A stretch of 64,000 nucleotides of DNA, taken from NCBI RefSeq assembly GCF_932294415.1, contig NC_065535.1, positions 23,090,782-23,154,781 of the forward strand, read 5' to 3'. The position numbers and the translations under genes were made by a program. Positions 20,571 to 64,000 of this stretch are shown here, in pieces (positions within the stretch are counted from its first letter, which is position 1; each line of letters starts with the position of its first letter). The DNA is from Quercus robur. Taxonomy: Eukaryota > Streptophyta > Magnoliopsida > Fagales > Fagaceae. Below the pieces are notes generated by a model. That model made no database searches and had not been told where the DNA came from. It was given only the letters and a program-made list of their open reading frames with translations.

Positions 20571-23500
20571 TCATATTCGATCGATGAGGTACCTCTTCAG
20601 AGAGTTAATGGGCTTAGCAGAGTCCACATTGTCAGATCCACCGCTTCTAATCTTGATCCGAGCAAGATAATCAGCTGCAATCCAGGCAAAGCTCAGCATC
20701 ACTACATCCCTTGGACCATCTGATTCTAGCAAATCCACTGATTTTTGCAAATCCAGTGATTTATTCACCCAGTATGGATCATAAGTGACCTGGTACCATG
20801 CTGAGGCCTTCTGCTCGTAGACTAAATTCTTCTCATCATCAGGGAGTTGCTCAAAGTCAGAGTCAATGTGTTCAAAAATTTGCCTGAATTCTTTCTTCAG
20901 AGAACTATAACTATGCTTGAGCTTCTCCTTGAGCTCCCCTTGCTTCCTGCTGTTGTAATTGGGCATGGACCAGATGTGCCCAGTTACAATCTCTTCTTCC
21001 CTCTTCACTTTATACTGTCCTAATAGACCAATCAGCTGCCCATTATAAGAGCACTTTTGATGCCACGCATCCATGATGAAATCGTCAGATCCTGAAACCT
21101 TAAGATCTGAATCATAAGGGACATCATCAGGGACAAAATTTAGCTCTGAAGGCGCATCAATATCTTCATCATAAGCATCCTTTACTTGCCGATAAAGTCT
21201 TCCCAAGATTTTGGTGGACTTGTAGGATTGATTATCATCCTTCCCCATAAAATCAGGGTACAGTTTCGGTTTCAGATGTGAAGGCATCGTGACAAGCACC
21301 CCAGTCTTGGGAAAATCAACAGCTTTAGCTGCTAAGTCTGCTAGTGTGATGCAGTCCTCATCCAAAGCCCCATACTCACTGCGGTCAGCATGAACCACAT
21401 GTGCATTGCAGATTGTCCCAAGGCTCTCATTCACCATGTTTCTTGCAAAAAAATCTATTATATCCTATAAAATAAACATAGAATTTGAAAGTAAGAGAGC
21501 TTCTCCGTTACATGCTCTGAATTCTAATAAAATGTACGATGCTCAACGGAATGGGTAGAAAATAGAAATAACGGAAAAGAAAAATGAACAGGACAAATCC
21601 TAGGTTTTACCACCTAGAATTTGCCTGAAACTATTGGCTTCACAAACTAATGGTGCTTGGAGTCACCATCAAACTTAGAGAAACATCTCTAATCAGGATT
21701 TTTATTCAAATTGCACTGCTCAAAACTGGAGCCTCTTTTTAATAGGTTTCAAGGAGTACATCAAGCCACAATTACATTCCAGAAAATCCTCAACAACATT
21801 AAAGTCTAAATTCAAAAATAAAAAATGAGATCTGGAAAAGTCTCAAATTCTAAATTCTAAAACAATTTCAAATGAGAAAAATAATGAGAACATTTTGGTT
21901 GTATTGCATGCATCATAGTAAACCAAACAAGAGAAATATATACAAAGTTTTGCCAAATGTATCATATCTTAGTTACTCAATCCTTTAGGTGCATTACTCA
22001 GAATTCTACTTCATTTCATCAAATGCTTTTGCTCAGTCTATGTTAAAATTGTTATTAACACAATAAAGTGGCAGCCCCTTGAAATTGTACCAACCATGTA
22101 CGGAACTCCATTATGCCATTCAAATAGTCTTAGTAGTGTCATTCACTATCATTAACACCATTTGTGGTATAAAGAACTAGTTGTGAAAAGAACATTGCAT
22201 CATTTCAAGTGCCCATGGACAGTAGCACTTGCATTGTCCTGCTCTAGAAGGAACATTACTTTTCCTCCCCATAATATAGATTCAAAATGACATTGGGTCA
22301 TAAATCTCTGGAATCAACCCCCCCAGTCTTATCTTTATAATCTTGGTTGGAGAAGCACACCAAGAAAATAACAAGGATCTTCATATAAGGGGATTAGTAC
22401 AAAATAATAACAATGAAAGAATGGAACTTTAGAATTTGTAAAAATTTATCACATTCCAGATAGCAAATGTTCCTAGAATCAAACAGCATGGATCAAGTAC
22501 CTTAGAAGTGACTTTGCGTGACAAAAGTTTGGCTTCTGCAGGAGCATACTCCATGGGCGGCCAGCTCTTCTTACTAGGGGGAATAAGATTTTCATCCCAA
22601 GTCACAAAGTAAAGGTCCCCATCAAGGTCACTTCCAGATGCTTCATTGGGATGCGGCCTTTCACCATTTTGAGGGAAAACAAAGCAATCATGTAGATGGT
22701 GTAAACCAGGGGCATCAACTGCTTCTAGAATCCTTACATCTCCTGGGTGAAGACAAGGATTCTTCGCTATGGCCACATACCCTTTAATTACTTGAAGATT
22801 ATTCCCTCTCTTGGTAAACCTGGAACCATGCTTTGCAAAACAGTTTTCCAATGATGGGGTAGAAACTTGGATAAAGCATTGGCCCTGCTCAAGAACCCCT
22901 AGCTCATCTAAGCAGCCCATCAGCCACCTCCCTTTAGGGACAAAAATCCTAGCCTTCTCCCTAAGGCCCCAAAGCTGTGCAGCTCGTATACAGGTTAACA
23001 TGCCTCGTAGATGAGGTTCAATTTGAGGCTTGAAACCTGCACTCAACATTATTGCTGCTGCATTTCCTTGCTCTGCACAAGATGCTGTCAGAACATCAAA
23101 CGCCACATCTGTGTCCACAAGCATTTGGTTTAGTCTGGAGACCATTGATTCTTGCATTGTCCAGAATATTTCATCTCGAACATTCAAAGTTGAAAGTAAA
23201 GTCACAATCTGCCTGTTTAGGAAACCAGGCTGAAACCTTGTCCAAGAACAGATCTCAAGGATAGTATGGCATGACTGGAACTTGTTCATACTAAGCCTCA
23301 AAGAAAGTCGGGCCCCATCATCTTTTGCTGGCCAGCAGGCCACAACCCCCTTACAACCAGCATACCTAATCTGATAAGCACTAGGAGGATCCATGTCCAA
23401 TTTCAATTTCTCTGCAACTTCCATCGCAAGATCAGGAGTAATAATACCAATCCCATCAGAGAAACAATACCCATTCCTCTCTATATCAGGAAGGAAAGGA

Positions 23501-25221
23501 TTAACTTCTGTTGATGGAACTTCTACTGTAGCATATGTCGATGAGAAGCACTGACCCATCCTAGCAGCACACTTAGCAATGTTTTTATGGTCAAACTTCC
23601 CCATCCAATCTCTAATTTTGTTAACACTTAAGTTCCTGTCTTCAGCAAAAAACCAGGCAGAACGGTCCCTCAATTGATTGGCTGAGAAGGCTAAAAAAGA
23701 ATATTTCCGACCACATACATGAAACCCATCCCTTAGAAATGTACCCACCCTTTGGAATATTTTGGTTTTTTGCTGGAAAGAGTACGATTTGATTTCCCTA
23801 ACAATAGGAGCAACATAATACGAAAGAACATGGGAGTTCATTGTCTGCATCCCTTCATCCATAAAGGTAACCCTTAAAAACCGATCAGCAACTTCTTTAT
23901 ATTTCCTGAGAACCCTATTGGAAAGCTCAACTTCTGGTGGAAGACAATATGCTTTGGTTGGTGTAATGACCAGCCTCCTAACCTCAACAATATCATCCAG
24001 CTGTTTAGGGCTCTTGAAAAGCTTAGGATTCCTCAGCAACCAATCCTGAACAATTTTCAGCCTCTTGGAGGCATCAAACACTGGGCTTCTGTAAGAACAT
24101 ATGTGCTTTAGTGCAGCAACATTGACATCCATAGCTTGGCTTTTCAGCAAATCAAAGAAATTGTCTGACAGCTGGTGCTGATTGAAAATGCCCTTATGCA
24201 ATGCAGCATTAACCAAGAACATTATCTCAAAGGTTATGCCTTCCATGTGTTGAATACAAAACAAAGGATCTGACATGGGCAACCCAAAATCAGGTTCATC
24301 CTGGATCCTGAGCGGAGATTTAAGGCAGAACTCATGCACCCTTCGTTCTTTAAGATAATCCATGGCCTTCTCCAACTTCCTGCCATAGCGGGGTGGGATT
24401 GAAACCCTATAAGAATTACACCGACCAATTGCCCCACTAGGTGTAAAATCTGTGGTTCGGATCCAAGGATCATCATCATCCAACAAATCAAATGACACTG
24501 TTTCTTCAATATCATCATCAGCTGTTCTATACCAGACCCGGGGTGATGAAGACAGCTGCAATAGGATTACTCGATATGATGGCTCTGAATATCGCTTGAT
24601 CTCATTGATGTCTCTCACCAAGAATTCCACCTTGAAATCACATTTTACCATTTCATGCTTGCTCGTGTCTTTAAAAGTGAAAACAGTGTCTCTTGTGAAA
24701 CAAAACTTGCATGTCCCATCAAAAGGATCCACTAGAAACTCAACCCCTCTAGAAGGTCCTCTCCAAGCAACAAAAAAATCATCTCGGTTAACCAAGGTCC
24801 CAATCTCAACAAGCACATCAGACAACTTAATAGGAGTTGTAGCCCTCCTCCTCTTATTCAAGCAGAATGGATTTTCAGGACCTAAACTAGCCTTCAATAG
24901 ATTATTTTTCAAAGAAAGCTCACAACGCCCTGCTGCATTCATAGCCCAAGTTGCTGACTCGGGCAAGGCAAAATGCACAAATGCATGAGGCTCCACTGGG
25001 ACATAATGATCTGTGCTTTCAATGTTTGCAGTTTTAATGCTCTCTTCAAAATTTGGATACGACTCTGGAGGGGTCCAAGAAGTTTTTAGTCTGCACCTAT
25101 AAACAAGTCCAATTTCAGCTTCTAAGTATTGCAAAAGGTCTTTTGCTTTGACATGACGGTCAAATCCACCAAAACCAACTTGACTTGCCACTGTCTCTCT
25201 TAAGCTTCCTTCCGAACCCAT
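20571..25221 (-). CDS. RDR6: RNA-dependent RNA polymerase 6
   Basis: RDR6 copies cleaved or aberrant RNA into double-stranded RNA that DCL4/DCL2 dice into tasiRNAs and secondary siRNAs; it acts with SGS3 in cytoplasmic bodies. Coding exon 1 is 25221-22501 and exon 2 is 21464-20571 (TGA at 20573-20571), split by a 1036-base GT..AG intron. The product is 1204 aa, close to the family's roughly 1,200. Residues 1-130 match the RDR6 N-terminal RNA-binding part (MGSEGS start, CRLKTSWTPPESYPNF). The catalytic DLDGD motif starts at residue 865, inside GSDLDGDLYF. Exon 2 opens DIIDFFARNM and contains NAHVVHADRSEYGALDED. No frameshift or stop interrupts the frame. A 5'-UTR intron is plausible: an acceptor at 25276 and a donor at 26653 on the minus strand fit consensus, which would put the promoter beyond about 26850. 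Confidence 0.96.
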
Positions 25222-27061
25222 TTCTTTTCCTTAAATTCTGCTAGTTTCAAATCCTAAAAACCTCTCTAAGTCAACCTGATACAAAAACCCAAAACTGCAT
25301 TAGAAACCTAAAATAAAATGGTTCAAGGATTATATCACAATTCAACCACAAAGCCAATCCATTTCTGAAATAATAAATAAATAAATAACCTTTTTTCTGT
25401 TAGCTGAGAACTGTCCTTATTTTCTTTTCTTTTTTTGGTAAATTACACACACGCACACACAATGGGTCTTGAACCTACAACCTCCACCCTTAACTCCATT
25501 ATTGGGTAAGGACTAAGGATGAAGTGCCATTTGAGCTAAAGCTCATTGAGGGCAAAAAGAATTCACTAATATGCCGTATTGCATAGCATGCCTTTGTATT
25601 AGCGTCTCTCCTTTAGCTTATTAGCAATTTGCCTATCTACAATTTTTTAAGGCCTCATTTTTTTCTGGGGACAACAGTATTTTTACCCAGTTTTAAGGAA
25701 TTAGCAAAAAACTAATCCAGATGAACATCAATTTTCTTTAGTTTTACTAACTTCTTTAGTTTGAAAATCTTGATTTGCAATACCAAACATATTAGTAATG
25801 CAACGTTAGAAGCATCAGTTTCTTTCTAAATAATCTACTTACAGGAACCTAAAAATTATATTTGGAAATATTGCAAGAAAAGACCATTACTATTTAAATT
25901 AAAGCAATATTTAAAAACAACATTTGGCACTGAAGGTTACGGAAAAGATCTATTTCATCAACTCAAACATGACGGAAGTTAATATATGGAAACTCATTAA
26001 AAACTATTGAAAACACCCTTTAAACAATCAATTAAGAATATTAAATCCCATTAGCGAATTAGGTGCTAAGTCTAACAAACAAGTATGGAATAGTGGAATC
26101 TGTAATATTTTCTTTCTCATTTTTGGAAGAAAAAATTCCTTTCTGCATTTGTAAAACACAATTTTTATTTTTTATTTTTTCAGCAACTCAAGAGAAAATA
26201 TTTCAAGGCTACATAGTAAATTCCAATATCACAATTTCAATTTATATAGAAATCCTGCTTTGCTATAGCAATATAAACAGGTCATCATTGCTATCGTTTC
26301 TACCCAAAAAAAAAAAAAGGTCAACAAGATTGTTTCTAATCATCATAATTACTTCTCTTATTTTTTCTGGTTCAACCCAAAAAACAAAACTAAACAGAAC
26401 CTATACATACATACATCAAATTTTCATTTTGGAAAGAAATCTTGCTTTGCAAAAGCAATATAAATAGGTTAATAAGATTGTTTCTATCATCATAAACACT
26501 GCCCTATTTTCTCTAGCTCAACCAAAAAAAAAAAAAACACTACACTAAATATAACCAATACATATAGTGTAGCCTAGACAATCAGACACATTTACATCTC
26601 TCTCTCTCTCTCTCTTCAAAATTTTGGTTAAATTTATCAATAAACTTGCTCACCTCGCTGCATCTCGAGTTTCACACAAATGATTATTTGTACAAACAAA
26701 TGGTTATTTCAAGCATCTCTCTTCTTCTAAGGCAAGCACGTTTGTTTTCAGATTTCTTCATTCTCTCTTGCTAAGTTTGTTTTCAAAATTCTACGATAGT
26801 GTGAAACTGAATGATCTCTTCAGTAAAGAAGAGTTTGATTGAATAGCTATTGAGGAGTGTTTGGATTTGGTTGGGTCATAGAGTAGAGATAATATGTTGA
26901 GAGGTTCTACTTAAGAAGGTTAATTTATATATCACCCAAACAACATAACCATGATTTCCATTCAATACCAATGTTCACGTAGTTGCAACTCTATATTTTA
27001 ATTCCTACTCCAAGAACCAATCAGAACTAAACAAAAATACAGCAATAGTGAAATCACAAGG
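25222..27061. other. RDR6 5' flank: putative UTR intron and promoter
   Basis: No other gene recognised. Minus-strand text TTTTTGTATCAG|G (acceptor at 25277-25276) and CAGCGAG|GTGAGC (donor at 26653-26652) could bound a 1.4-kb leader intron of RDR6. A region around 26243-26345 is echoed at 26434-26500 (GAAATCCTGCTTTGC / GAAATCTTGCTTTGC, AGCAATATAAACAGGT / AGCAATATAAATAGGT), a diverged local duplication. A (CT)n tract lies at about 26598-26614. Confidence 0.45.
25428..25548 (-). mobile_element. SINE-like fragment upstream of RDR6
   Basis: On the minus strand a box-A-like TAGCTCAAATGGCA is followed by a box-B-like GGTTCAAGACCCA, then a GT-rich stretch and TTTACCAAAAAAAG, the layout of a tRNA-derived SINE. 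No target-site duplication was found. Confidence 0.6.
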
Positions 27062-27259: not shown

Positions 27260-29080
27260 TGATGGAGGAAAAATGGTGAAAAAGAAATATGATTTAGAAA
27301 GCTATGTTGCTTAGAGAAAAGAAAGAATGAACTAGCTCTTCAAGAGATACACTCTTGGAATAATACCTCATAGGTAGATTTCTTGGATTCAAATTCAACT
27401 AGTTACAATGAGGGCAGCCTTGCTTATTTGTAGTTACATAAGCAAGCTGCTGAGTTAGTTACAAGAACCCATCATTTGGCTGCCATGTGATTGGCCAAAA
27501 CCTAACTAACTTCTCTAATTAATAGGCCGCCGCACTTGTCACTAACAACCTATCAGCTAACTAACTTTCCGTTACAAGTGATAAAGACTATTAAAAGTAA
27601 AAGGAAACTACTTATTACAACATAAGCTAGTAACAGATAGAATTAAAAATGAACTGCATCAAGACTGTCCCTCTTTGGAACACACTTGTCCTCAAGTGTG
27701 ACTAGTTGTAGGATGCAGCAAGTGATGCACATTGAAACTATTGGAGATCTGCATATGATCTAGTAGCTCCACTGATCTGCATTCTCATTAGTTGCTGTAT
27801 TAAGCTGCTGCATCATGTTAGAGATTAAGGTCTATTGCTGCTTTGTGTCAAGGCTGCAAGTGTAAGCAGCCACGTCAATGCCCTTGCATCCAATATTCTT
27901 CATTTTGACCATTGGTTTGGGACTAGCTTTCCCCTTCTTTTGCTGCAATGTGTAACAACCTCCTTTCTTGTATAAGTTGGACATGTTGCTCCTTCCACCC
28001 AAAATGGTTTGATATGGAGCTGTTCCCATCAGGCTGAAGCTCTCCCTCTCAGCTTGATAGAGATCAATTTCACCTTCTTGGAATCTGGTACCTCATGGAA
28101 ATCAAAGATTCTTTCCACTTGGTTAAACCAATCCATGAATTCTTCATGATTCAAGCTACCATAGAACTTAGGTAACTCAATCTTGAAGTTTGATTCCCAT
28201 TTTGGTTCTCCCTTTGGAGGACTAGGCACTTGCCTTGGAACACCTCCTCTAGGCTGACCAATTGGGTTACTAAAGTTGTTGTGACTGTCAATTTCAAGCA
28301 TCTTCAGCAGGTTCATCATCATTTCTAGGATAATAACGCCAGTTTCTTCTCACCTCCTCAGTCAAGGCAGCAAGCTGCCCCCTTAGCAGCTGCAGTCTGC
28401 TCCAATGTCACATGGGATTCTCCTTCTTGGTGGGGTTGTGGCTGCTGCCTGGGATGAACCTGCTACTCAGGCTCATGTGCTGCAGAACCTTTCTTGTTCC
28501 TTCTATTATAAACTATTGGTGTCATCTTCACAAATTCTTAGGCTCACTAGAAGAGGATAAGAAAAATGAAATCAAGATAGGATCTTGATAGGTTCTTGAT
28601 GATAGAAAATGAAGAAACAAATTGCAAACCAACTTGAATCCTAAGGATCTCAAGCTTTGATGCCAAATTATGATGGAGGAAAAATGGTGAAAAGGAGAGA
28701 TGTTTTAGAAAGCTAAGTTGCTTAGAGAAAAGAAAGAATGAACTAACTCTTCAAGAGAAACACACTCTTGGAATAATACCTCATAGGTAGATTTCTTGGA
28801 TTCAAATTCAACTAGTTACAATGAGGGCAGCCTTGCTTATTTATAGTTATATAAGCAAGCTACCAAGTTAGTTACAAGAACCCACCATATGGCTGCCATG
28901 TGATTGGCCAAAGCCTAACTAACTTCTCTAACTAACTAATAGGCTATTGCATTTGTCACTAACAATCTATCAACAAACTAACTTTCTATTACAAGTGATA
29001 AAGACTATTAAAAGTAAAAGGAAACTACTTATCATACAACATAAGCTAGTAACAGATAGATTTAAAAATGAACTACGTCA
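27260..29080 (-). mobile_element. Deleted gypsy LTR retrotransposon nested in the LINE remnant
   Basis: LTRs lie at 27260-27661 (402 bases) and 28671-29080 (410 bases), running TG..CA, with CCACC duplicated at 27255-27259 and 29081-29085. In minus orientation the internal 1.0 kb keeps a gag piece (28322-28029: FKIELPKFYGSLNHEEFMDW ... KKVKLISIKLRGRAS), a second short frame (28029-27832), and just before the 3' LTR the residues LEDKCVPKRDSLD, a typical gypsy polyprotein end. Protease to integrase is deleted. A primer-binding-like TTGGCATCAAAGC follows the 5' LTR near 28665. Confidence 0.88.
28029..28322 (-). pseudogene. Gypsy gag fragment
   Basis: The 97-aa frame contains the WESNFKIELPKFYGSLN block and EEFMDWFNQVERIFDFHEVP, hallmarks of the retrotransposon gag domain that packages element RNA. 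It stops soon after KLRGRAS, where intact relatives continue with AWWEQ-like sequence. The break marks the large internal deletion of this element. Confidence 0.8.
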
Positions 29081-34860: not shown

Positions 34861-35639
34861 ACTGCTCTAATTTTCTTGTGTCTTGCAGTCTTGTCTTGTC
34901 GGTATTTTCTGCTGCCTTAACTTCTGTGGTTAGTAAACCCTTTCAATGCCTTCTCCCAACTGCTTCGCTGCAATCAGAGGTCCTTAGGGTTGAATCTCCA
35001 CCGCCAAAAGCTCCTCTTCTGCCGCCAAAACCACTGCCATCATCGGATTTGTCACCTCTGACCTCCGATTAGGACATAAGACCTATCATCGTATAGATAT
35101 TCAATCGCTCTACACATCGCCGCCAGAAACATCCACATCTGACCATCCACGCGCAATTCAAAGTTTCAGTGAAGTTGATCCACACGCCTTACGCGCCACC
35201 AAGGTATCTTCGATCTTGTTGCCACTGACACCATAAGAATCGTCTTTCTCTGATCTGCATCATCGGAGAAGAAATAGCTTCATCAGACAGTTCACGCGCT
35301 CTCACGCGCCGCCAGAATCTTCGACGAAATTGATCCATGCGCCTCACGCGTTCCACGCACCACTGGGTTATCTGCTGACGTCATCCCTACCACGTCAGCC
35401 CTAGCTGACATCACTTGCTTACGTCAGCGCCACATCATCTACTGACGTTAGCATCTGTTAACCTGCTGACGTCATCCAGTTGACTTTGACCAGGTTGACC
35501 GTTGACTTTTGGCAAAAGTTGACTTTTTGCAGTTCAGGTGCTCCTTACCCAGTTTTTTGCGTAGATTTCATTTTTGCAGTCCATTTTTGCATATTTTGCT
35601 TCTAAATAAAAAATAAGGACAGGTCTTCTTCTTGTTGTA
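34861..35639 (+). other. Copia leader without gag
   Basis: Between the primer-binding site and the first pol/gag-end homology no gag frame is seen. The stretch holds repeated CACGCGC and TGACGTCA-type words (35270-35500), and the GTTGACTTTTG words near 35480-35530. Gag has been lost or replaced here. Confidence 0.5.
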
Positions 35640-38600
35640 ATAATCGTCGCCGACAATCCAGTAAACGTTTTTGCAATTTTTACAAACGTTTTGGCCACAA
35701 TATTGAGAATTGCTATCATCGCAACAAATCAGCTGTGTCAATTTTCGCTGCTACTATTTCTAACATTGAGAGTGTCCAACCAATGGCTCCCGTTTCTGCA
35801 CAGTCTAAGTCTTCAAGACGCACTTTCACCATGTCCACAGATGACCTTAAAAATATCATCGCCAATGTCATTCGTATGGTTGATAATGCATCTTATTCCT
35901 CTTCTCTCTCAGCTTTATCTGGTATGTCTCCTTCCTCTTGGCTTATGGATTCTGCTTGTTGCAATCACATGACTCCTCACTCGTCCTTATTTTCTGAACT
36001 TAAACCTGCACCACATCCTTTTAATATTCACACAGCAAATGGTTCCACTATGTCTGGTCATAATATAGGTTCCGTTTTGACCTCTAATCTCTCGGTTCCC
36101 AGTGTCTTTAATGTTCATGACCTTTCTTACAATTTATTTTCTGTGGGACAATTAGCTGAGTTAGTTTATCGCATTATTTTTTATTATTCTGGGTGTATTG
36201 TGTAGGATCCAAGGACGGGACAGGAGCTTGGGACCGATCCCAGAATTAGGTGTATGTTTCCCGTGGACAACCTTCGTCTTCCACTTATTGCTCCTGTTTC
36301 TGTTGCTGCAGCTGCTGCAGTTTCTTCTACTTCTTCCCTTGCACTTTGGCATGCTCGACTTGGTCACACATCTTTCTTTCGGGTACAACAATTGGCTTCT
36401 AGAGGTTTGTTAGGTTCAGTGTCTACAGAAAATTTTGATTGTGTTTCATGTCAGTTAGGAAAACAACCAGCTTTGCCTTTCAATACTAGTGAATCAATAT
36501 CCACTGATATCTTTGACCTTAGTCATTATGATGTTTGGAGGCCTTCCTCTGTCTCTAGTATTGGTGGGTCTCGATATTTTGTTGACTTTGTTGATGATTA
36601 CTCTCACTATAGCTGGATTTTTAATATGAAACATCATTCTAAGTTATTGCAAGTATATTCTAATTTTGCAAAAATTGTTGAAACTCAATTTTCCAACGTA
36701 TCAAAATTTTTCGATCTGATAATGCTCTTGAGTACACTCAATATGCTTTCCAAGCTGTTTTACATTCTTATGGCACTGTTCATCAACTAACTTGTCCAGG
36801 TACCTCTCAGCAAAATGGTAGAGCCGAACAACTTCGTCATATTCTTGACACTGTTCGTGGTCTTCTTTTCTCTGCCAAAGTTCCTACTCTTTTTTAGGGC
36901 GAAGCTGCTCTTTATGTTGTTCATGCTATTAATCGCATTCCAAGTCCTGTTATTCAAAATCAAACTCCATATAAGCGCCTTTTTGGGTCACCTCCAGACT
37001 ATCACCACCTTCGCTCCTTCGCTTTTGCTTGTTTCGTTTTTCTTCAGCTGCATGAGCATAACAAACTTAAGCCTCGGTCAAGACTTTTATTGTTTTCTTG
37101 GTTATGGCGAAACTCAAAAGGGGTATCGGTGTTATGATCCTGTCTCTCATCGTCTTCGTATCTCCCGTAATGTTGTCTTTTGGGAACATCGCTCCTTTGT
37201 TGAGTTCTCTCACTTCCGTGCCTCCCTATCTTCCTTTTTTGTTTAGATTTTTTTCTAGATGAGGCACATATTCCTCCTGTAGTTGCTCCTGATCCTCCTA
37301 TAGACTTCTCTGTCCAACCACCAGATACCTTTGATTCCTTTCCTACTTCACCCTTTAATGAACAGGTGGAAGATGCACAGGTTGAAGACGAGCTACCCAA
37401 CCCTAAGCTTGGGTCCCCTATTCTTGCTCCGCCTGAAGATCTTGTACAAGACATTCCACCTCGTCACTCAACTCGGGTAAGATCCATTCCTACACATTTA
37501 CTTGATTATCATTGTTACACTGCCCTTGCTACACTACACGAGCCTCACACCTATCGTGAGACTTCCACTGACCCTTTATGGCAGATTGCAATGAAAAAGG
37601 AACTTGATGCATTATCTAAAAACTATACTTGGGATTTGGTGACTCTCTCCCCTGAGAAATCTGTGGTTGGTTGTAAGTAGATCTACAAGATTAAGACTCA
37701 CTCTGATGGGTCCATTGAGCACTACAAAGTTCGTCTTGTTGCAAAAGGTTTTACACAGGAGTATGAGATTGATTATGAAGAGACCTTTGCTACGGTTGCT
37801 CGTATCTCATCTATTCGTGCTCTCTTAGCTGTTGCTGCTGCTAGTAAATGGGACATTTTTCAGATGGATGTCAAAAATGCATTCCTTAATGGGGATTTAA
37901 GTGAAGAAGTTTATATGCAATCTCCTCCTGGTCTCTCTGTTGAATCAAATAAGGTCTGTCACCTTTGGCGTGCACTTTATGGCCTTAAACAAGTTCCACG
38001 AGCTTGGTTTGCCAAATTCAGCTCTACCATCTCTCGCTTAGGTTACATGGCCAATTATTATGATTCTGCCTTATTTCTTCGTCGCACTGACAAACACACT
38101 ATTTTACTTCTCCTGTATGTGGATGATATGATCATAACTGGTGATGACCTCAGTAGCATTCAAGAACTCAAGGATTTTCTCAGTCAGCAATTTGAAATGA
38201 AAGATCTTGGACATCTCAGCTACTTCTTGGGTCTTGAAATCACTCATTCTATAGATGAACTTTATATTACTCAAGCCAAGTATGCCTCTGAACTCTTGTC
38301 TCGAGCTAAACTCAATGATAGCAAGACTGTTAACACTCCAGTTGAGCTTAATGCGCATCTGATTCCGTCAGGGGGGAAACCGTTGTCTAATCCCTCTCTT
38401 TACAGATGCTTGGTTGGCAGCCTAGTTTATCTCACTGTCACTTGTCCAAACATTTCCTATGCTGTTCACTAGGTGAGTCAGTATCTGTCTGCTCCACGAT
38501 CGACTCACTATGTTGCTGTTCTGCGCATTCTTCGATACCTAAAGGGCACTTTCTTCCATGGTCTTTTCTACTCTGCTCAGTCTCCTCTTGTTCTCCGTTC

Positions 38601-42552: not shown

Positions 42553-42557
42553 ATCAA

Positions 42558-43258
42558 TGTAGGGCCGGGGAGCTTATGATCCGGCCCACGCTCTATCTGG
42601 GCTCAGGGCCCGTGCCGAGGAGGTAGTGTGCCGAGGACGAGTGATCAAAGGCCGAGGGGTTAAGGGGAACAGCTGAGAACGACCCTATCCTCGGCACTCC
42701 AAGACTTCGATGAGAAGAGCAACGTCGTAGTGAAGGATATCCCCAAATAGTCCCCTGAAGGGGATGTGAGTGGAATAGGGCCCACGTGGAGGTACGGTGC
42801 AAAATAGGTTCAAGGAAAATACGTCTCCTCCGCATTAAATGCGCCGGCCAGCATCCTGATCATGTTAATGAGAAAAGACGCTTGGACGGTGTAACTTCGA
42901 TCCTCGCAACTAACAGAAAGTAAGAGGGGACAGCTGATGGGACAGGTACAGAAGTAAGTACCTGCCTGACCAACAAGTGGAGGGCTAAGATCAACCAAGA
43001 AGGACTATATAATGTAAAAGTTAGTGCACCAAGAGGGGGCTGGGAAAAATGGCCAAAAACTAGAGCCTCCCAGCCCGCCTCCAGGAGAAAGACTCCTAGG
43101 GCAAAGACGACTTAATCATGTATGAACACCACGAAAAACCCACCGTCTGGTGACCAAGGCCTAGCCTTTCGAACCCACGCTCTACAAATGATATTGTTTG
43201 GGCCTTTTTACGTGCGAACCCAACACCGTTGTGGGTTGTTACGAATCGTGTTCTTACA
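42558..43258 (+). repeat. 5' LTR of the antisense-gene element
   Basis: It starts TGTAGGGCCGGGGAGC and ends GTTCTTACA. A promoter-like GGACTATATAATG is near 43003. Confidence 0.92.
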
Positions 43259-43477
43259 ATTGGCGCCGTCTATGGGAAAGGCTTGTGTGTTGGCATAGAT
43301 GGTAGGTCGAGACAGTTCCCTTGTCATTTCTAACAGCCGATTATAGTGTTCTAGCGTAGGGTTCCACTAGGGGCTATGATTCTTGACTAGGGGCTATGCT
43401 TTGTAGCGTCAATCGCATGGATGGTTCTGGGGGCTTGGCCGAGGAGCCAATCCCCCTAAAGCTAAGACCCCATGCCA

Positions 43478-44204
43478 AAAACCGAGTTTTGAAGAAAAAC
43501 TGAGTTTTGGACAGAACCAAGGTATTACATGGTCCTTGGACTCAAACCTATGGGGAAACCAACTACTTAGAAAAACTGAGTTTTGGACAGAATCAAGGTA
43601 TTGCATGGTCCTCGGACTCAAACCTATGGGGAAACCAACTACTTAAATGAGAAAACTGAGTTTTTGACAGAACTAAGGTATTGCATGGTCCTCGGACTCA
43701 AACCTATGGGGAAACCAACTACTTAGATGAGAAAACTGAGTTTTGGACAGAACCAAGGTATTGCATGGTCCTCGGACTCAAACCTATGGGGAAACCAACT
43801 ACTTAGATGAGAAAACTGAGTTTTGGACAGAACCAAGGTATTGCATGGTCCTCGGACTCAAACCTATGGGGAAACCAACTACTTGGAAGAAAAACTGAGT
43901 TTTGGACAGAACCAAGGTATTGCATGGTCCTCAGACTCAAACCTATGGGGAAACCAACTACTTAGATGAGAAAACTGAGTTTTGGACAGAACCAAGGTAT
44001 TGCATGGTCCTCGGACTCAAACCTATGGGGAAACTAACTACTTTTTAATATCTATCGAGTTTTGGACAGAACCAAGGTATTGCATGGTCCTCGGACTCAA
44101 ACCTATGGGGAAATCAACTACTTATTAATATCAATCGAGTTTTGGACAGAACCAAGGTATTGCATGGTCCTCGGACTCAAACCTATGGGGAAACCAACTG
44201 CTTA
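43478..44204. repeat. Nine ~80-bp tandem repeats beside the primer-binding site
   Basis: The unit reads GAGTTTTGGACAGAACCAAG, GTATTGCATGGTCCTCGGAC, TCAAACCTATGGGGAAACCA, ACTACTTAGATGAGAAAACT. Copies start near 43502, 43578, 43658, 43738, 43818, 43897, 43977, 44057 and 44137. The linker varies (AGATGAGAAAAC, TTAATATCTATC), while the core is nearly invariant. Non-coding. Confidence 0.93.
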
Positions 44205-44582
44205 AAGAAACCTGGGCACTAAGCAGGACTTAGCGACTACACGTGACATCTAAAACGATACCTATATCTTCGTTGAATGAGGGTTAGAAATGAGTCCAAG
44301 GCTCTGCGAGAGCAGGTAAGCTAGGGTTTTGAAACACGATGTTAAATGTATCGCATGCACAAATATTCGTACGTGTTAAGATAAATTAGTTCAGAATTCA
44401 TAAACAATAGTAAGTATCGACAAAGGCAACTAACAAGTAACCAAAAGGAAAAAGGGAGAAAAAGATTTCATATATACATGTCCAATAGGTTCAAACTACT
44501 AATGGATTACAAAGTTTTCGAAATGAAAAAGAAACAAGTTAATCGTTAAACTAAAAACAAATACGGAGCCTAGCCAGGGTTT

Positions 44583-47286
44583 CTATTTCTTTAGTTTTGC
44601 GTCGGCCACGTCCTGGGAAGGCGGAACGAGAACAGCTTCGACGCCCTGGAGGATAGTCCCTTCTGGGGAAGGCTGAACAGGGTCAACATCGGTACTTTTG
44701 GGGACCACAGCAAGGGGAATTGACTCTGGGGGCTGGGCAAGTATGGCTGGCTCCTCAGCATTAGGCATCTGAGTGCCAACCCTGGGCTCAGTAACCTCTT
44801 TGGGTGCCTCAGGATCCGTATGCTGAGATATTTCTATCACATCCTGAAGTTTTCCCTCTTTGAGCGTCTTGCCAGGAGAGCCGCCGACCTGTAAGTCTTC
44901 CGACTGAGTGACCCCTTCCTCGGGTTGGTCACCCATAGCCACGGAGCTGGAGGAAGTAGCCTCACGGATGGCTGTAGGGTAGAATATGTTCTCCGCCTTC
45001 CACAAATCGGATGAAGCATTCACCCCAGCTCGCTTCAATGCCTCTTCCCAAACCTGGGAGCAGTAAAGCCTGCATACTCCAGGAATCTGGGCTTTAAGAA
45101 TGGCTTGGGTTTCAGCTACCCCCGCATTATAACCATCATCCTCGGCCGTTTCCTTGGCAACTTCAGCCTCATTTCTGGCAAACTCGGCCTCCTGCTTGGC
45201 CCTTATGGCTTCGTCACGGGCATACTCTGCCACACCTTTGTCATGCTCGGCCGTGGCCAGCTTTTTACCTAAATCCTTGATCAGGTCTTTAGCTATTTGC
45301 AACTGATCCTCGGTTTCTAGGAGACGTTTTGTTTGGTCTTCGGCCTGTTTTTGGGCGCTAGCTAAGCTCGCCGATGCGCTATCCCTTTCACAGATAGCGA
45401 CTGTTAGGTCAGCCCTGGCCTTGGTGAGGTCATCCTCAGAAGTTTGGAGGGTCTTCGCGGCCGCTAAGCGCTTGGTGCGTTCATTCTCGACCGCCTTACT
45501 CTTATTATTCACCTCTTCCTCCATCCTATAGATGGCCTGGAGAGCCTGGCAAGGGAGATAAATGTATAGTTAAAGACAAACCAGGAGCGAGAGTTAATAA
45601 AGTTTTAGGTTTCAAGAAACCTTACCATGCCCAAGTACCTCTTAGTACTGAGGAAGACCTCCTGCATCCTCATTTTCCTCAGTCCATCCATGTCAGTGGG
45701 AAGTAGCATGGTTCTCCCTAGTGCGTCTGCCACGTAGCCACCCTCGCCATCTCCAAGGTCCCTCATGGATGCAATTTCCAGTAGTGGACTCCAGTGGAGC
45801 ATTGGGGCAGGAAGCCAGGCGCTTGGCGAGGACTGGGCCTCGATCCCCTTTCCCTTGCTTTGAGAGGATTGGACTTCAGTTTCTTTACCCTTACTTTGGT
45901 GTCCAATCTTCAGTTGTTTTGTGCGCGAAGCCTCCTCATTCTCCTTAGAAGGTTGGGATTTTCCCCCGTCCATGGTTTCCTTGCCCTTGGGGCTCCTCTT
46001 TCTCTTTGAATTAGTGCCTTCCGGCCGAGGAGGCAGAGCTGGTTGGGAGGTAGCAGGAAGTTTGGGGCGGGGGGATTGTGGCTGTGACTTGGTGGAAGAT
46101 GACCTAGTCTGGACAATCTGAGGCTGAGGTGGTGGGGAAGGAGCATTGGGTTGTGGCGTTCCCTGCGTATCCTTCCCAGGTTGGCCCTCGAGGAGTTCGA
46201 GTAGGGGGGTCGGGGGCTTTTTCTTGAGTCCCATCTCGGCTTGAGAAGAGGTGCCTACCAATGACAATTCCGCCTCGGACAAGGCTGGGTCACCTATATC
46301 ACCAGAAGGATCCTCGGGTTGGTGGGCTAGGTCAAATACCCCAAAACCTTCCTCGGGCCGATCTAGCTCGCCTTCGTCCTCTGCTACTTGATGAGATGAG
46401 GAAGGGCCCACCGGTGGGATGTTTTCGGGGACAGATGGTTCCTGGGAGATTGAAAATCCTGTCTCGACCACGGTAATTTTTGGAAGCCAAGGACGGCTGG
46501 CGTTGATCACGTGCCTTGCGTCCGCAAATGACTTCTGAACAGGAGGGTACCCTAGTATTTTGTGAGCTGCTCGGACTTGACCATCTCCGTCATTTACGAA
46601 AACTGCTGCTTGTAAGACGGTCTCCAAGTCCGCCCGGTTGACTAAGTGAAAATGCCGTTGGTAGGCGTGTGGATCTACAAAAAGAAAAACACACATGCAT
46701 GGTTAGTTTCCAAACAACATCAGATTAGAATGGCGTTAAGGCTCATCGCCCTTCCATTCCCAGTACCCCACCTGGTTCTCCTTCTACTATGGGGCACGGA
46801 TTGCCATCGTGCCATTCACCAGAGACGATAAGGAAATCCTTGTTTAAATCCCTTGTTGGAGTCAGGGAGGCATTGGATTAATCGAATCCTTTCGTCCCTT
46901 GTCTTCATGTAAAAGGTTTTCCCCTTCAACTTTTGGAGATTATAGCACCAGTTCACATCATGGTGGGTCAGTCTTAACCCCATCTTCTCGTTTAAAGCGT
47001 CCACGCAACCTAGAATCCTAAAAACATTGCCGGCGCACTGGGTGGGGGCTAATCGGAAGTGCCTGAGGTAACCCCTCGTTACCGGCCCCATAGGGATTCT
47101 CATACCCCCCTCTACAAAGGCGAGGATGAGAATTACTACCGCGCCCGTTTCCCTCTTATAATGCCACTCCCCCATCTTACAATGCCTCAGACTTACGTTG
47201 GGAGGAATCCTATAATCGACGATGAACTTATTCATCGCCTCTTCAGTATCGACTAATTTCCTCAGTCTCAATTTAGCCATCTCCAT
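44583..47286 (-). CDS. Antisense retroelement gene (aORF), three exons, coiled-coil protein
   Basis: Function unknown. On the minus strand the start is at 47286 (MEMAKLRLRK). Exon A ends at 46772, exon B is 46674-45626, and exon C is 45545-44583; all introns are GT..AG. A leader intron probably begins at 47389 (GTAAGTTCC). Exon A carries a conserved domain (VEGGMRIPMGPVTRGYLRHF, RILGCVDALNEKMGL, LTHHDVNWCY). Exon B is Pro/Ser/Lys-rich and low complexity, ending YVADALGRTMLLPTDMDGLR. Exon C is an Ala/Glu/Lys coiled coil of about 170 residues followed by an acidic tail. A reading-frame shift near 46850 breaks the end of exon A, so this copy may be non-functional. The domain resembles plant proteins annotated as putative gypsy-type transposon (Transposase_28-like), by recall only. 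Confidence 0.72.
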
Positions 47287-47815
47287 GATTTACTAAACAA
47301 ACCCAACCCGCGATGGGAGAAGAAAGGGAATCAACGAAAAATAAACCCAGAAAAGAGAAAGCACGAGTTAATGGAGGTAGGGAACTTACATAAAAGAGGA
47401 AAGGCGCTTCGGATAGGCTTTTTGTGCTGGAGATAGACTTGAATTTGGACGAAAATTCAGATGAACCCAGAATATACGCGCTAGAACTCTTAAGTGCAAA
47501 ACTGAAGAGACAGATCCGTTCCAAAAAATCTCTTATACTTTCTAGGGTAACTGCACAAATTTTCCCGCCCATAAAGACCAAGGGATCACGACCGTTCGAT
47601 CTTCATCATGCCGTAGAACGTGGGAAACACAAAGCCGCCCGTATTTAATGAGGCCACGTTTCGCCTTCCAAAGGCTCTAGGAACGTGTCTCGGGCAGATA
47701 AAAAGTCTCGGGAACCGATAGGTGACAAGGATGGACAGGCATTGGCAGATGTATGATGTCATCAAAACCCTCCTATCCATCTGAGGAGTCGGATAGCAGG
47801 ATTTTGAGGGGCTAT

Positions 47816-48516
47816 TGTAGGGCCGGGGAGCTTATGATCCGGCCCACGCTCTATCCGGGCTCAGGGCCCGTGCCGAGGAGGTAGTGTGCCAAGGACGAGT
47901 GATCAAAGGCCGATGGGTTAAGGGGAATAGCTGAGAACGACCCTATCCTCGGCACTCCAAGACTTTGATGAGAAGAGCAACATCTTAGTGAAGGATATCC
48001 CCAAATAGTCCCCTGAAGGGGATGTGAGTGGAATAGGGCCCACGTGGAGGTACGGTGCAAAATAGGTTCAAGGAAAATACGTCCCCTCTGCATTAAATGC
48101 GCCGGGCAGTGTCTTGATCATGTTAATGAGAAAAGACGCTTGGATGGTGTAACTTCGATCCTCGCAACTAACAGAAAGTAAGAGGGGACAGCTGATGGGA
48201 TAGGTACAGAAGTAAGCACCTGCCTGACCAACAAGTGGAGGGCTAAGATCAACCAAGAAGGACTATATAATGTAAAAGTTAGTGCACCAAGAGGGGGCTG
48301 GGAAAAATGACCAAAAACCAGAGCCTTCCAGCCTGCCTCCAGGAGAAAGACTCCTAGGACGAAGACGACTTAACCATGTATGAACACCACGAAAAACCCA
48401 CCGTCTGGTGACCAAGGCCTAGCCTTTCAAACCCACGCTCTACAAATGATATTGTTTGGGCCTTTTTACGTGCGAACCTAACACCATTGCGGGTCGTTAC
48501 AAATCGTGTCCTTACA
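47816..48516 (+). repeat. 3' LTR of the antisense-gene element
   Basis: It starts TGTAGGGCCGGGGAGC and ends GTCCTTACA. It is the same length as the 5' LTR, differing at about 30 positions, mostly C/T and G/A transitions, as expected from decay of methylated DNA. Confidence 0.92.
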
Positions 48517-48616
48517 ATCAACAAACTAGGTCACATGTTTAAGCTTTGTTTATTTAATTGTTGAACATGCTTGAGTTTGCTCACCATCTACTTAATTATA
48601 TATATTTTTTTTTTGA

Positions 48617-60798: not shown

Positions 60799-61476
60799 TG
60801 TAGTTGCACGATTTTCCTGGCCCAAACCCTATTGATCAGGCCCTGGCCCAAGGCGCAACACACAATAAATACTTGTAGAGGCTGGGTCAAAAAACTTAGC
60901 CTCAGTGAGCTTAGTCGGTCTAAGGTATGGAAAATGTTGTTGTAGGAATAAAAACACCAGAATGGATACTCCACAGAAGATTCTATTTCCTGAGTGCTGA
61001 ATACATTTTTCTTCGTCCTCTTCTTTGAGGGACTCCATTACATTATATAGCTCTCTCATTCTTATCTGAACCTTACACTTGTTGATCATCTAAACCCCCA
61101 CTTGAGCACCTGTCTTATCAGACACCTTTATCACTCCCTTGTGAGTTGCAGTGGCCAAGGTAGTACTGTTCAGGGGTCTTTTCCTCATTAATGCGGCCAA
61201 GAGGGTGGTTGTGACACATTTAATGTGGCGGTAGCAGCTTTCCATAAGATATTTTGGGTTTTATTCTTTTTTATATGCTTGGAGGATGAGTTGCAGTGGT
61301 TGGGGCGAGCTTTTGGTCTGGACTTCGTAGTGTCCGAGGAGGTGTTACTCCTCGGACAGGTTTCTTTTACCGTAGTTGGGCTTGAATAATGTTTTGGCTA
61401 TGACTTCTCCTCGGACACGATACTTCTCGAACGGGCCTGTATTTAACTAGCCCATTATTTTGGGCCGGGCCCCACA
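60799..61476 (-). repeat. 3' LTR of the second antisense-gene element
   Basis: On the minus strand it starts TGTGGGGCCCGGCCC and ends CGTGCAACTACA (TG..CA). ACTAT precedes it on + at 60794-60798 as the likely target-site duplication. CCTCGGAC and CGAGGAG words, also common in the first element, recur. Confidence 0.8.
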
Positions 61477-62012: not shown

Positions 62013-64000
62013 ATGGGTAAATTCGAAAAATTAGTAAATACTCCGGCCGCTATGGAGGCCTTTAGGGCAAAATACCACATTCCCCCGGGGGTGGGGCTGC
62101 AGTACTGTCCTCTTGAAGGAGTATTGACAGATAGAGGCGAGGGAGAAGTTGTTATCTCCATGATTGCTTTCATAGAGGGAGGGATGACACTTCCCATGCG
62201 TAGGATTACAAGGGAATACCTGTTCAACCATAGGTTGACGCCGTATCAGTGTGCCCCAAATATGTTCAAGATACTAGGCTGTGTAGATGTCTTAGACGAG
62301 CGGATGAATCTAGGCCTTACTTGGCACGACGTGGTTCATCTGTACGAGTGTCACCGCCTCGAGAGCGGAGGGTATTATCTTAAATCCCGATCCGAGGTTG
62401 TTAGATTGATCTCTTGTCTTCCCGTATCCAATAAGACCGTGAAGAATGATTTCCTTATTACTTCGGGGGAGTGGTTCGATGGTATTCATTGTCCGACTCG
62501 GGTAGGAATCCCAGGTGCGGCGTCTTTAGGGCCAATCCTTTTGGGGAAAGGGTTTAGTGTTGGGGGGTTATCTTTCTTGCTTTCTTTACACTTGGAGAAT
62601 TTCATGAACTAATCCCACTTCTCTTGGATGTTTGCAGATAAAGTTCACGTCGCTCCTCGGCTAAACTTCGTGAATGTGCCGGCGCTGAACTACCTTCTGA
62701 GGTCGGAAATTTACGTTACTGAGGACGAACAGTTACGTGCGGCTCATCTGGTTCTGGGCTATCAACCTCTAAGCCGCTCTTTCCAAGCTATTGGTCACGC
62801 CATAAGGGCTGGCAGTCCGAGGTTGGCTAGGATTGACGTGTCCAAGACCGGGTTCCTAGCTCGACGTGATCTTCCACCAGTCGTACTACCCGACGTCTGA
62901 CATCCCTATCTAGCAGAGCAACTACCTCCGCCAGACGAGCCTGGTGTTGCTGTTCCAGTTGAGGGGCAAACCGAATCATCTCGTCTTTCCCTTGAGGAAG
63001 AAATAGACGAGTTTTATTTTGAGGAGGAAGTTCAGCAAGACCCCGTGGTTGAGCTTTCTGATCCTGAAGGAGAGTAGGACCGCAATTCCGTGGCTGGTGG
63101 TCCAATCATAATAACCTGCTCGGACGACTCCTCGGACGGAGAAGGAGGTGATATGGGAAAGTCTCTGCGAGAGTTGATGTCCAGCCGAGGAAAGGGTCAG
63201 TCCTCAAAGGCGCCTGCCAAGGCACAAACCCAAGACCCTCCTCCAATCGCCCCTCAGGTCCCTACTGATCCTGGCCTCAAGGCTATCCCCGACCTAAAAA
63301 AGAAGAGGCAGGCTGACATTCCTGAAGAGGGTGAACTGGTTTCCCGACCTGCTAAGTAGCAAAAGGCTACAAAGGGACAGAGGAGTAAGAGGGCAAACTC
63401 CTCGGAGAGCAGGGACGAGGAGAACCGTGCTGAGGTGCGCGCTACTCCGCGTACATGGAGCCCTAAGTTGGAGTTAGATGGGGTTGCCATCCCTTACAAC
63501 TCGTCGATCCGAGAGTACAACAGGGGCCGAGCAGGGTACGTGGCTGATGCCTTAGAGCAACCCCTACTACTTCCTCGGGATATGGAAGCCTATAGGCGGT
63601 TCTCTCAGCCCGAGATTTTCCTATCCCTCAAAAGGGATCTTGCGATGGTAAGTAATCCTTTTACTGTTTTATTAATTTATTTAACCCTGTTAAATTCTGA
63701 ATCGATCTTGTTTCGTTCGCAGATTACTCAGCAGGTATTTGTGGCTAAGGAATTTTGTCGTGATAATCGCAGTCAGGCTGAGGCTGAGGCTCAGTCTCGG
63801 ACGGAGATGGAGAAAGCCTTGGGGTCCCTCAAGCACGATCACCTTGAACTCACGGAGAAGTTCAAGGAGTCGGAGAAACGGTGCAAAAGTGCTGAGGCTG
63901 GTTTGAAAAGCGCCGAGACCCAGGCAGAGGACCAGCGTAAAGAGCTATATTTGACCCAGATCAACCTCGCCACCGAGAAGCAGGCAGTGCTGGATCTCAA
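62013..64000 (+). pseudogene. Antisense retroelement gene, related to 47286-44583, broken by stops
   Basis: Exon 1 is 62013-62514, exon 2 is 62638-63647 and exon 3 starts at 63723 and leaves the window. Splice positions and phases equal those of the first copy: exon 1 ends CCAG before GT and exon 2 starts AT in both. Exon 1 (MGKFEKLVNTPAAMEAFRAK, IEGGMTLPMRRITREYLFNH, ILGCVDVLDERMNLGLTWHD) matches the conserved domain. Exon 2 shares YVADALEQPLLLPRDM with YVADALGRTMLLPTDM. Exon 3 opens a coiled coil (AEAQSRTEMEKALGSLKHDH). Exon 2 has in-frame stops at 62898-62900, 63076-63078 and 63357-63359, so the gene is inactive. Confidence 0.8.

Follow-up and report, generated by a model that had tools for sequence, protein, structure and literature searches.

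The question raised by this locus is why a long terminal repeat (LTR) retrotransposon that has no recognisable gag-pol should retain, on its opposite strand, a gene interrupted by introns. The element lies at 42558-48516 of a 64,000-nucleotide stretch of the Quercus robur genome (here termed the window; C2:23090782-23154781 of a 785.7-Mb genome in 42 contigs). We consider it likely that it represents one copy of a non-autonomous family of the Retand lineage (Ty3/gypsy, Tat clade) which is mobilised in trans, and in which the antisense gene is of benefit to the element that carries it.

The element is complete. It spans 5,959 bp, 4,557 bp of which lie between two LTRs of 701 bp on the plus strand (42558-43258, TGTA...TACA, and 47816-48516) that have TG..CA ends, are identical at 671/701 positions and differ by a Kimura two-parameter (K2P) distance of 0.0446; sequence comparison places a target-site duplication (TSD), ATCAA, on the left (42553-42557) and on the right (48517-48521). 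On the same strand, a TATA-like box in the LTR (TATATAAT, 43006-43013, found by eye) is a candidate sense promoter, the primer-binding site (PBS; TGGCGCCGTCTATGGGAA, TGGCGCC..., 43261-43278) lies 2 bases past the LTR and the polypurine tract (PPT; TTTTGAGGGGCTAT, 47802-47815) ends directly before the 3' LTR. Flanked by PBS and PPT, the interior is made up, in this order, of a leader, a tandem array of 8.9 units of 80 bp (43496-44206, plus strand) and the antisense gene. In a Pfam scan of the sense-strand open reading frames (ORFs) overlapping the interior, none of the 13 of at least 60 amino acids, taken from stop to stop, was matched, and the description of this locus in an earlier note as a complete element devoid of polymerase genes can thus be upheld. 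The two LTRs are set apart by 27 transitions and 3 transversions and, given that 13 of the 27 transitions fall in CG context, methylation decay probably makes the element look older than it is. At the grass substitution rate of 1.3e-8 per site per year (woody plants being slower) the insertion would be some 1.7 million years old, an estimate that is probably inflated by such decay.

With the first 443 bp of the LTR as query, 1,091 first-look candidates were obtained in the host genome, and the best 40 (94-100% identity) were scored. These 40 comprise 11 LTR pairs, namely that of the window and 10 others, and 18 unpaired LTRs. The gag-pol-less layout is found in eight of the 10 further pairs (L009, L010, L012, L013, L014, L016, L017 and L018), which measure 5.9-6.5 kb, align end to end with the window element (88.7-97.0% per segment) and leave no part of the interior unmatched over 60 nt or more. 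The leader-to-array junction is common to all of them, and their arrays range from 8.0 to 16.0 units. Each of the eight carries its own 5-bp TSD and, in the nine complete copies that they form with the window element, LTR K2P lies between 0.026 and 0.046; their flanks are different, even if AAT-repeat DNA of a similar kind surrounds two of the copies. The existence of at least eight further complete copies, each with its own target duplication, implies that the gag-pol-less form has itself transposed; both this claim of the earlier note and the occurrence of other elements with the same layout are therefore borne out. In a tree of 11 copies, five, the window copy among them, form a near-star.

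The two remaining pairs were not counted as complete. One of them (L011, at G000:C37:66611453-66616204) was rejected as a further gag-pol-less element because it is a rearranged locus, in which an LTR is followed by AT-rich flank and then by a truncated copy; the AT-rich flank seen after the first LTR recurs after the second. The other (L015) bears a deletion that runs from the LTR edge into exon 2 of the antisense gene, and its PBS is therefore gone. Both loci are included in the 11-row counts given below and stand outside the nine-row counts. Ten of the 18 unpaired LTRs were examined and proved to be nine solo LTRs, eight of them with matching 5-bp flanks as judged by eye, and one truncated element with exons of the antisense gene. 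The family is hence non-autonomous: LTRs, PBS, PPT, array and antisense gene are kept, no gag-pol can be recognised and at least nine independent insertions are present.

The antisense gene (aORF, for antisense ORF) is read from the minus strand. A TATA-like box, TATAAG (47532-47537), about 255 nt before the start codon, aligns with TATATAAG in a neighbouring full-length element described below, and a leader intron of 97 nt follows (47389-47293, GTAAGT..TAG). Exon 1 (47280-46772) encodes the Transposase_28-like region and is separated by a 97-nt GT..AG intron (46771-46675), of phase 1 where the frame break described below is absent, from exon 2 (46674-45626), which consists of an N-terminal conserved block, a basic low-complexity middle and a C-terminal conserved block. 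After a second GT..AG intron of 80 nt and phase 0 (45625-45546), exon 3 (45545-44583), charged and coiled-coil-like by eye, extends to the stop codon. The start codon was set at 47280 because an ATG at 47286 is private to the window copy. As predicted from these exons, the aORF would specify a product of about 839 residues, in which a Transposase_28-like domain at the N-terminus is followed by a low-complexity, basic stretch and then by a coiled-coil-like terminal part. The match to Pfam Transposase_28 (PF04195) scores 20.5 bits for the window aORF and 14.9 bits for that of the neighbour, below the cut-off of 26.2. AlphaFold2, run on the exon-1 domain of two sequences, gave a predicted local distance difference test score of 34.7, too low for use, and a search for relatives in viral contigs returned none. 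In the host genome, the exon-1 protein yielded 5,650 first-look candidates, 150 of which were scored (80-100% identity), and the gene family to which the aORF belongs therefore looks very large.

Read-through of both coding introns is blocked in the window copy, since each contains an in-frame stop and has a length that is not a multiple of three. In exon 1, the frame that opens at the ATG breaks near 46843 and ends at 46816, while the continuing frame reaches the donor at 46771. This break is private to the window copy, being absent from all 10 other copies aligned, and suggests that the ability to make the whole protein has probably been lost in the window copy. The three exons and leader intron proposed in the earlier note thus stand, and are reinforced by the introns matched in a relative, but the frame break had been overlooked. 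Simulated neutral decay at the LTR rate would have introduced some 2.1 new stops into the three exons since insertion; the window copy has none (chance 0.11), which suggests that its template probably had an intact or near-intact gene.

The aORF reading frame bears the mark of purifying selection in the variants that are shared between copies. The sample comprises the nine copies nearest to the window LTR, in which sites are not independent events, and the expected numbers of nonsynonymous (N) and synonymous (S) variants were derived from mutation classes. Variants present in at least two of the nine complete copies amount to 54 N and 65 S, against 80.0 and 39.0 expected (ratio 0.41, p = 4e-7), whereas private variants, present in one copy and which we infer to be mostly younger than the insertion, amount to 258 N and 151 S, against 279.4 and 129.6 expected (ratio 0.79, p = 0.023). 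The two classes differ significantly (Fisher test, p = 0.0007), and selection across copies, for which the earlier note had asked a test, is hence detected in shared variants, with private ones nearer to neutrality. When the same sites are read in frames +1 and +2, the shared ratio becomes 1.27 and 1.39, and codon position 3 holds 66 of the 119 shared variants. The shared ratio is 0.43-0.44 with all 11 rows and 0.40-0.49 when each row is dropped in turn; a control on noncoding flank provided 8-9 shared variants per frame, too few to inform (ratios 0.22-3.80). In full-length elements the conservation of the aORF is inseparable from that of the element itself. A gag-pol-less family that went on multiplying, with selection on its antisense protein still in evidence, separates the two, and on these grounds it can be argued that the gene benefits its carrier.

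A second element, located 12 kb away in the opposite orientation and crossing the right edge of the window, provides a full-length relative for comparison. It measures 11,214 bp, with an internal region of 9,858 bp, and its LTRs (the 678-bp 3' LTR at 60799-61476 on the minus strand, the 5' LTR at L019 8117-8794) are identical at 664/678 positions and bordered by the TSD ACTAT on both sides. It encodes gag (PF03732, 6.5e-11), RVT_1 (9.2e-32), two RNase H domains and rve (9.4e-13). A single ORF contains RVT_1 at 130-289, RNase H at 353-480 and RVT_3 at 537-654, with the integrase in the next ORF, and we read the RVT_3 domain as an additional RNase H between RNase H and integrase. Its pol is spread over several frames, and activity is not claimed. 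An array of 14 units of 81 bp lies between pol and the aORF, which is found on the plus strand (62013-64000 within the window) and consists of exon 1 (62013-62514), an intron (62515-62637), exon 2 (62638-63647, with three in-frame stops), an intron (63648-63734, with two nearby alternative acceptors) and exon 3, from 63735 past the window edge. The acceptor of the leader intron likewise has nearby alternatives.

In the reduced and the full-length element, the leader intron and both coding introns occupy the same places and have GT..AG ends. Since the exon-1 proteins are identical at 72/144 residues (codon positions 1, 2 and 3 differ at 61, 45 and 100 of 144), chance is not a credible explanation for three introns matched in such a relative. 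The two exon-2 blocks show protein identities of 20/41 and 21/39. Synonymous sites are saturated between the families (NG86 gave no estimate of synonymous divergence, dS), so that only codon-position counts were used. At the DNA level, the arrays of both elements are homologous (about 70%, blastn 8.9e-41), the PBS is near-identical and a 17-nt block over the PPT and LTR edge is identical. The within-window comparison of the reduced element with its neighbour returned no nucleotide match, as befits related but different families. Likeness between the families exceeds that of shuffled sequences in exon 1 and the leader intron (0.56 for the latter, against a shuffle maximum of 0.54), and does not in introns 1 and 2 or in two exon-2 pieces (0.48 and 0.54, against maxima of 0.53 and 0.54). 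Given the shared PBS, PPT edge, array, aORF and introns, the reduced element presents the layout of its neighbour minus gag-pol.

Several observations weigh against a selected antisense protein in a trans-mobilised reduced family. The Transposase_28 match of the aORF lies under the Pfam cut-off (20.5 versus 26.2 bits). Private variants are not fully neutral (ratio 0.79, p = 0.023), which indicates that the mutation model or the split between shared and private variants is imperfect. Stops are common, occurring at 28 positions over the 11 copies; most are private, four of the 28 are present in at least two copies and two stop-creating variants are shared among the nine complete copies, so that propagation of broken copies, or repeated hits, may have occurred in some cases. 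In addition, some of the shared variants could have arisen before gag-pol was lost, or have entered by recombination with full-length elements. Template switching among related LTR elements is established and, together with the many stops in existing copies and the two shared stop-creating variants, it lends some weight to the notion that the antisense gene is a passenger, its conservation having been inherited from full-length elements through variants that arose before the deletion or by a switch of template to full-length RNA packaged alongside. We regard this as a possible explanation, albeit a clearly less probable one, because all eight complete relatives are alike in layout and in leader-to-array junction, which is what descent from a single founder would produce. 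If there was a single founder, the shared variants, with their ratio of 0.41, would postdate the loss of gag-pol.

It is also conceivable that selection acts on the antisense RNA, through splicing, small RNAs or control of the sense RNA, and not on the protein. Antisense transcription has been proposed as regulatory for such elements (PMC7264820) and, between families, the exon-2 pieces fall within the shuffle range in DNA while the leader intron lies slightly above it. The signal, however, follows the codon frame, with codon position 3 prevailing among shared variants and no nonsynonymous deficit in the other two frames, and the between-family proteins of exon 1 and the two exon-2 blocks are about half identical; we therefore deem an RNA-level explanation improbable. 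Finally, insertion of a full-length element at this site followed by internal deletion of gag-pol, in a family otherwise autonomous, is scarcely tenable even though the L011 and L015 loci show that rearrangement after insertion does occur, since the same layout at eight other sites with their own TSDs would call for eight matching independent deletions.

For a trans-mobilised family with a beneficial antisense gene, the following course of events may be envisaged. Sense RNA would start in the LTR, and full-length Retand elements akin to the neighbour 12 kb away would supply the proteins for its packaging, copying and integration. The antisense gene would be transcribed, as reported for gene23 of Grande (PMC7264820), from its own TATA-box promoter upstream of the 3' LTR, and its transcript would then be spliced. 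We infer, on an argument that appears sound, that the antisense introns have not been lost because reverse transcription takes as its template the sense RNA, in which they do not constitute splice signals and remain unspliced. The aORF protein may work in the nucleus as an accessory factor, increasing the expression or transposition of the carrier element, and elements with a working gene would have left more copies even without gag-pol. A practical corollary of the conserved introns is that surveys based on ORFs would see antisense genes only in pieces.

It may further be speculated, with a good deal of doubt, that the reduced element forms a regulator module complete in itself, composed of the antisense gene and of the DNA recognised by its protein. 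The candidate word is TCCTCGG. When one LTR from either family was compared with the two arrays, no other 7-mer was common to all four sequences, and none of 200 shuffled sets shared any 7-mer. Each of these LTRs contains three occurrences, the 8.9-unit array of the window element 7 and the 14-unit array of the neighbour 13. If this were so, binding of the aORF protein to TCCTCGG in LTR and array would favour its own element, and would explain how gag-pol could be lost with gene and array kept. Against such a module, TCCTCGG is overrepresented elsewhere too, namely in the aORF region of the window element and in the gag-pol of the neighbour (6 and 7 occurrences, versus 0.62 and 0.84 expected), its number in LTRs varies from 0 to 3 across the nine complete copies, and the word was noticed by eye before testing. 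Array, gene and LTRs together offer a small natural system in which to test the job of the antisense gene.

Other features of the window include a decayed Ty1/copia element (35606-38472, plus strand), whose Pol_BBD, gag_pre-integrs and RVT_2 (6.5e-64) domains each fall in a different, broken frame, and an RDR6-like RNA-dependent RNA polymerase gene (20574-25230, minus strand; RdRP 5.2e-156, RDR6_2nd 5.9e-87), a silencing gene some 17 kb from the reduced element. A direct repeat of about 400 bp (27260-27655 and 28671-29074) is 91.6% identical, with its two copies 1 kb apart and edges without TG..CA. Two inverted-repeat pairs, 12568-12819/14468-14219 (93%) and 32839-33146/33903-33597 (83%), are possibly ends of DNA transposons or of elements resembling miniature inverted-repeat transposable elements.

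The earlier note had assigned the reduced element to the Tat lineage, and the layout of the neighbouring full-length element allows this to be sharpened to Retand. An additional RNase H between RNase H and integrase marks Ogre/Retand (PMC6317226), and this trait, on our reading of RVT_3, is present in the neighbour. Of an antisense ORF with Transposase_28 between pol and 3' LTR, the neighbour shows the position and strand; its PF04195 match lies under the cut-off, as does that of the reduced element. A tandem array is present in the neighbour, and that of the reduced element is homologous to it. The internal region of Retand elements spans 7.4-12.9 kb, a range into which the neighbour falls (9,858 bp) and outside which the reduced element lies (4,557 bp) because its gag-pol is absent.

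A survey of Retand reported antisense accessory genes in almost every recently active cluster, and 10 of its 63 clusters are non-autonomous, with some domain missing (Vicient 2025, PMC11963269). Its elements resemble those described here in the Transposase_28-type (TRP28) antisense ORF between pol and 3' LTR, the arrays at that place, the LTR size and the non-autonomous clusters. They differ in having been mined by an intact reverse transcriptase (RT) domain, so that a form without any gag-pol could not enter the survey, and the word "intron" is absent from the main text. In the open-licence literature, judged mostly by title and abstract, we found no gag-pol-free element keeping only this gene, no intron analysis of the gene and no selection test in such a family. 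The "Retand I" element of common bean (PMC13392006) is likewise non-autonomous, with 6.8 kb, an 87-bp array and recent transposition, but has kept GAG, PROT and RT and lost RNase H, additional RNase H and integrase; the available part of that report mentions extra ORFs of unknown function and not a retained antisense gene. In a similar vein, the non-autonomous LTR family Dasheng of rice, which belongs to the same lineage, depends on a full-length, putatively autonomous partner, RIRE2 (PMC5473765), itself placed under Retand (PMC6317226), although a retained antisense gene is not mentioned in the accessible sections on Dasheng. In maize Grande, the accessory gene gene23 lies antisense, has a promoter of its own upstream and encodes a nuclear protein (PMC7264820); Grande elements, unlike the reduced family, carry gag-pol, and introns of gene23 are not mentioned in the sections consulted. 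For Retand, then, earlier work has established the antisense TRP28 genes, the arrays and the existence of non-autonomous members (PMC11963269, PMC13392006, PMC7264820, PMC6317226), and it is the gag-pol-free form, together with the selection on its antisense gene, that is new relative to the literature searched.
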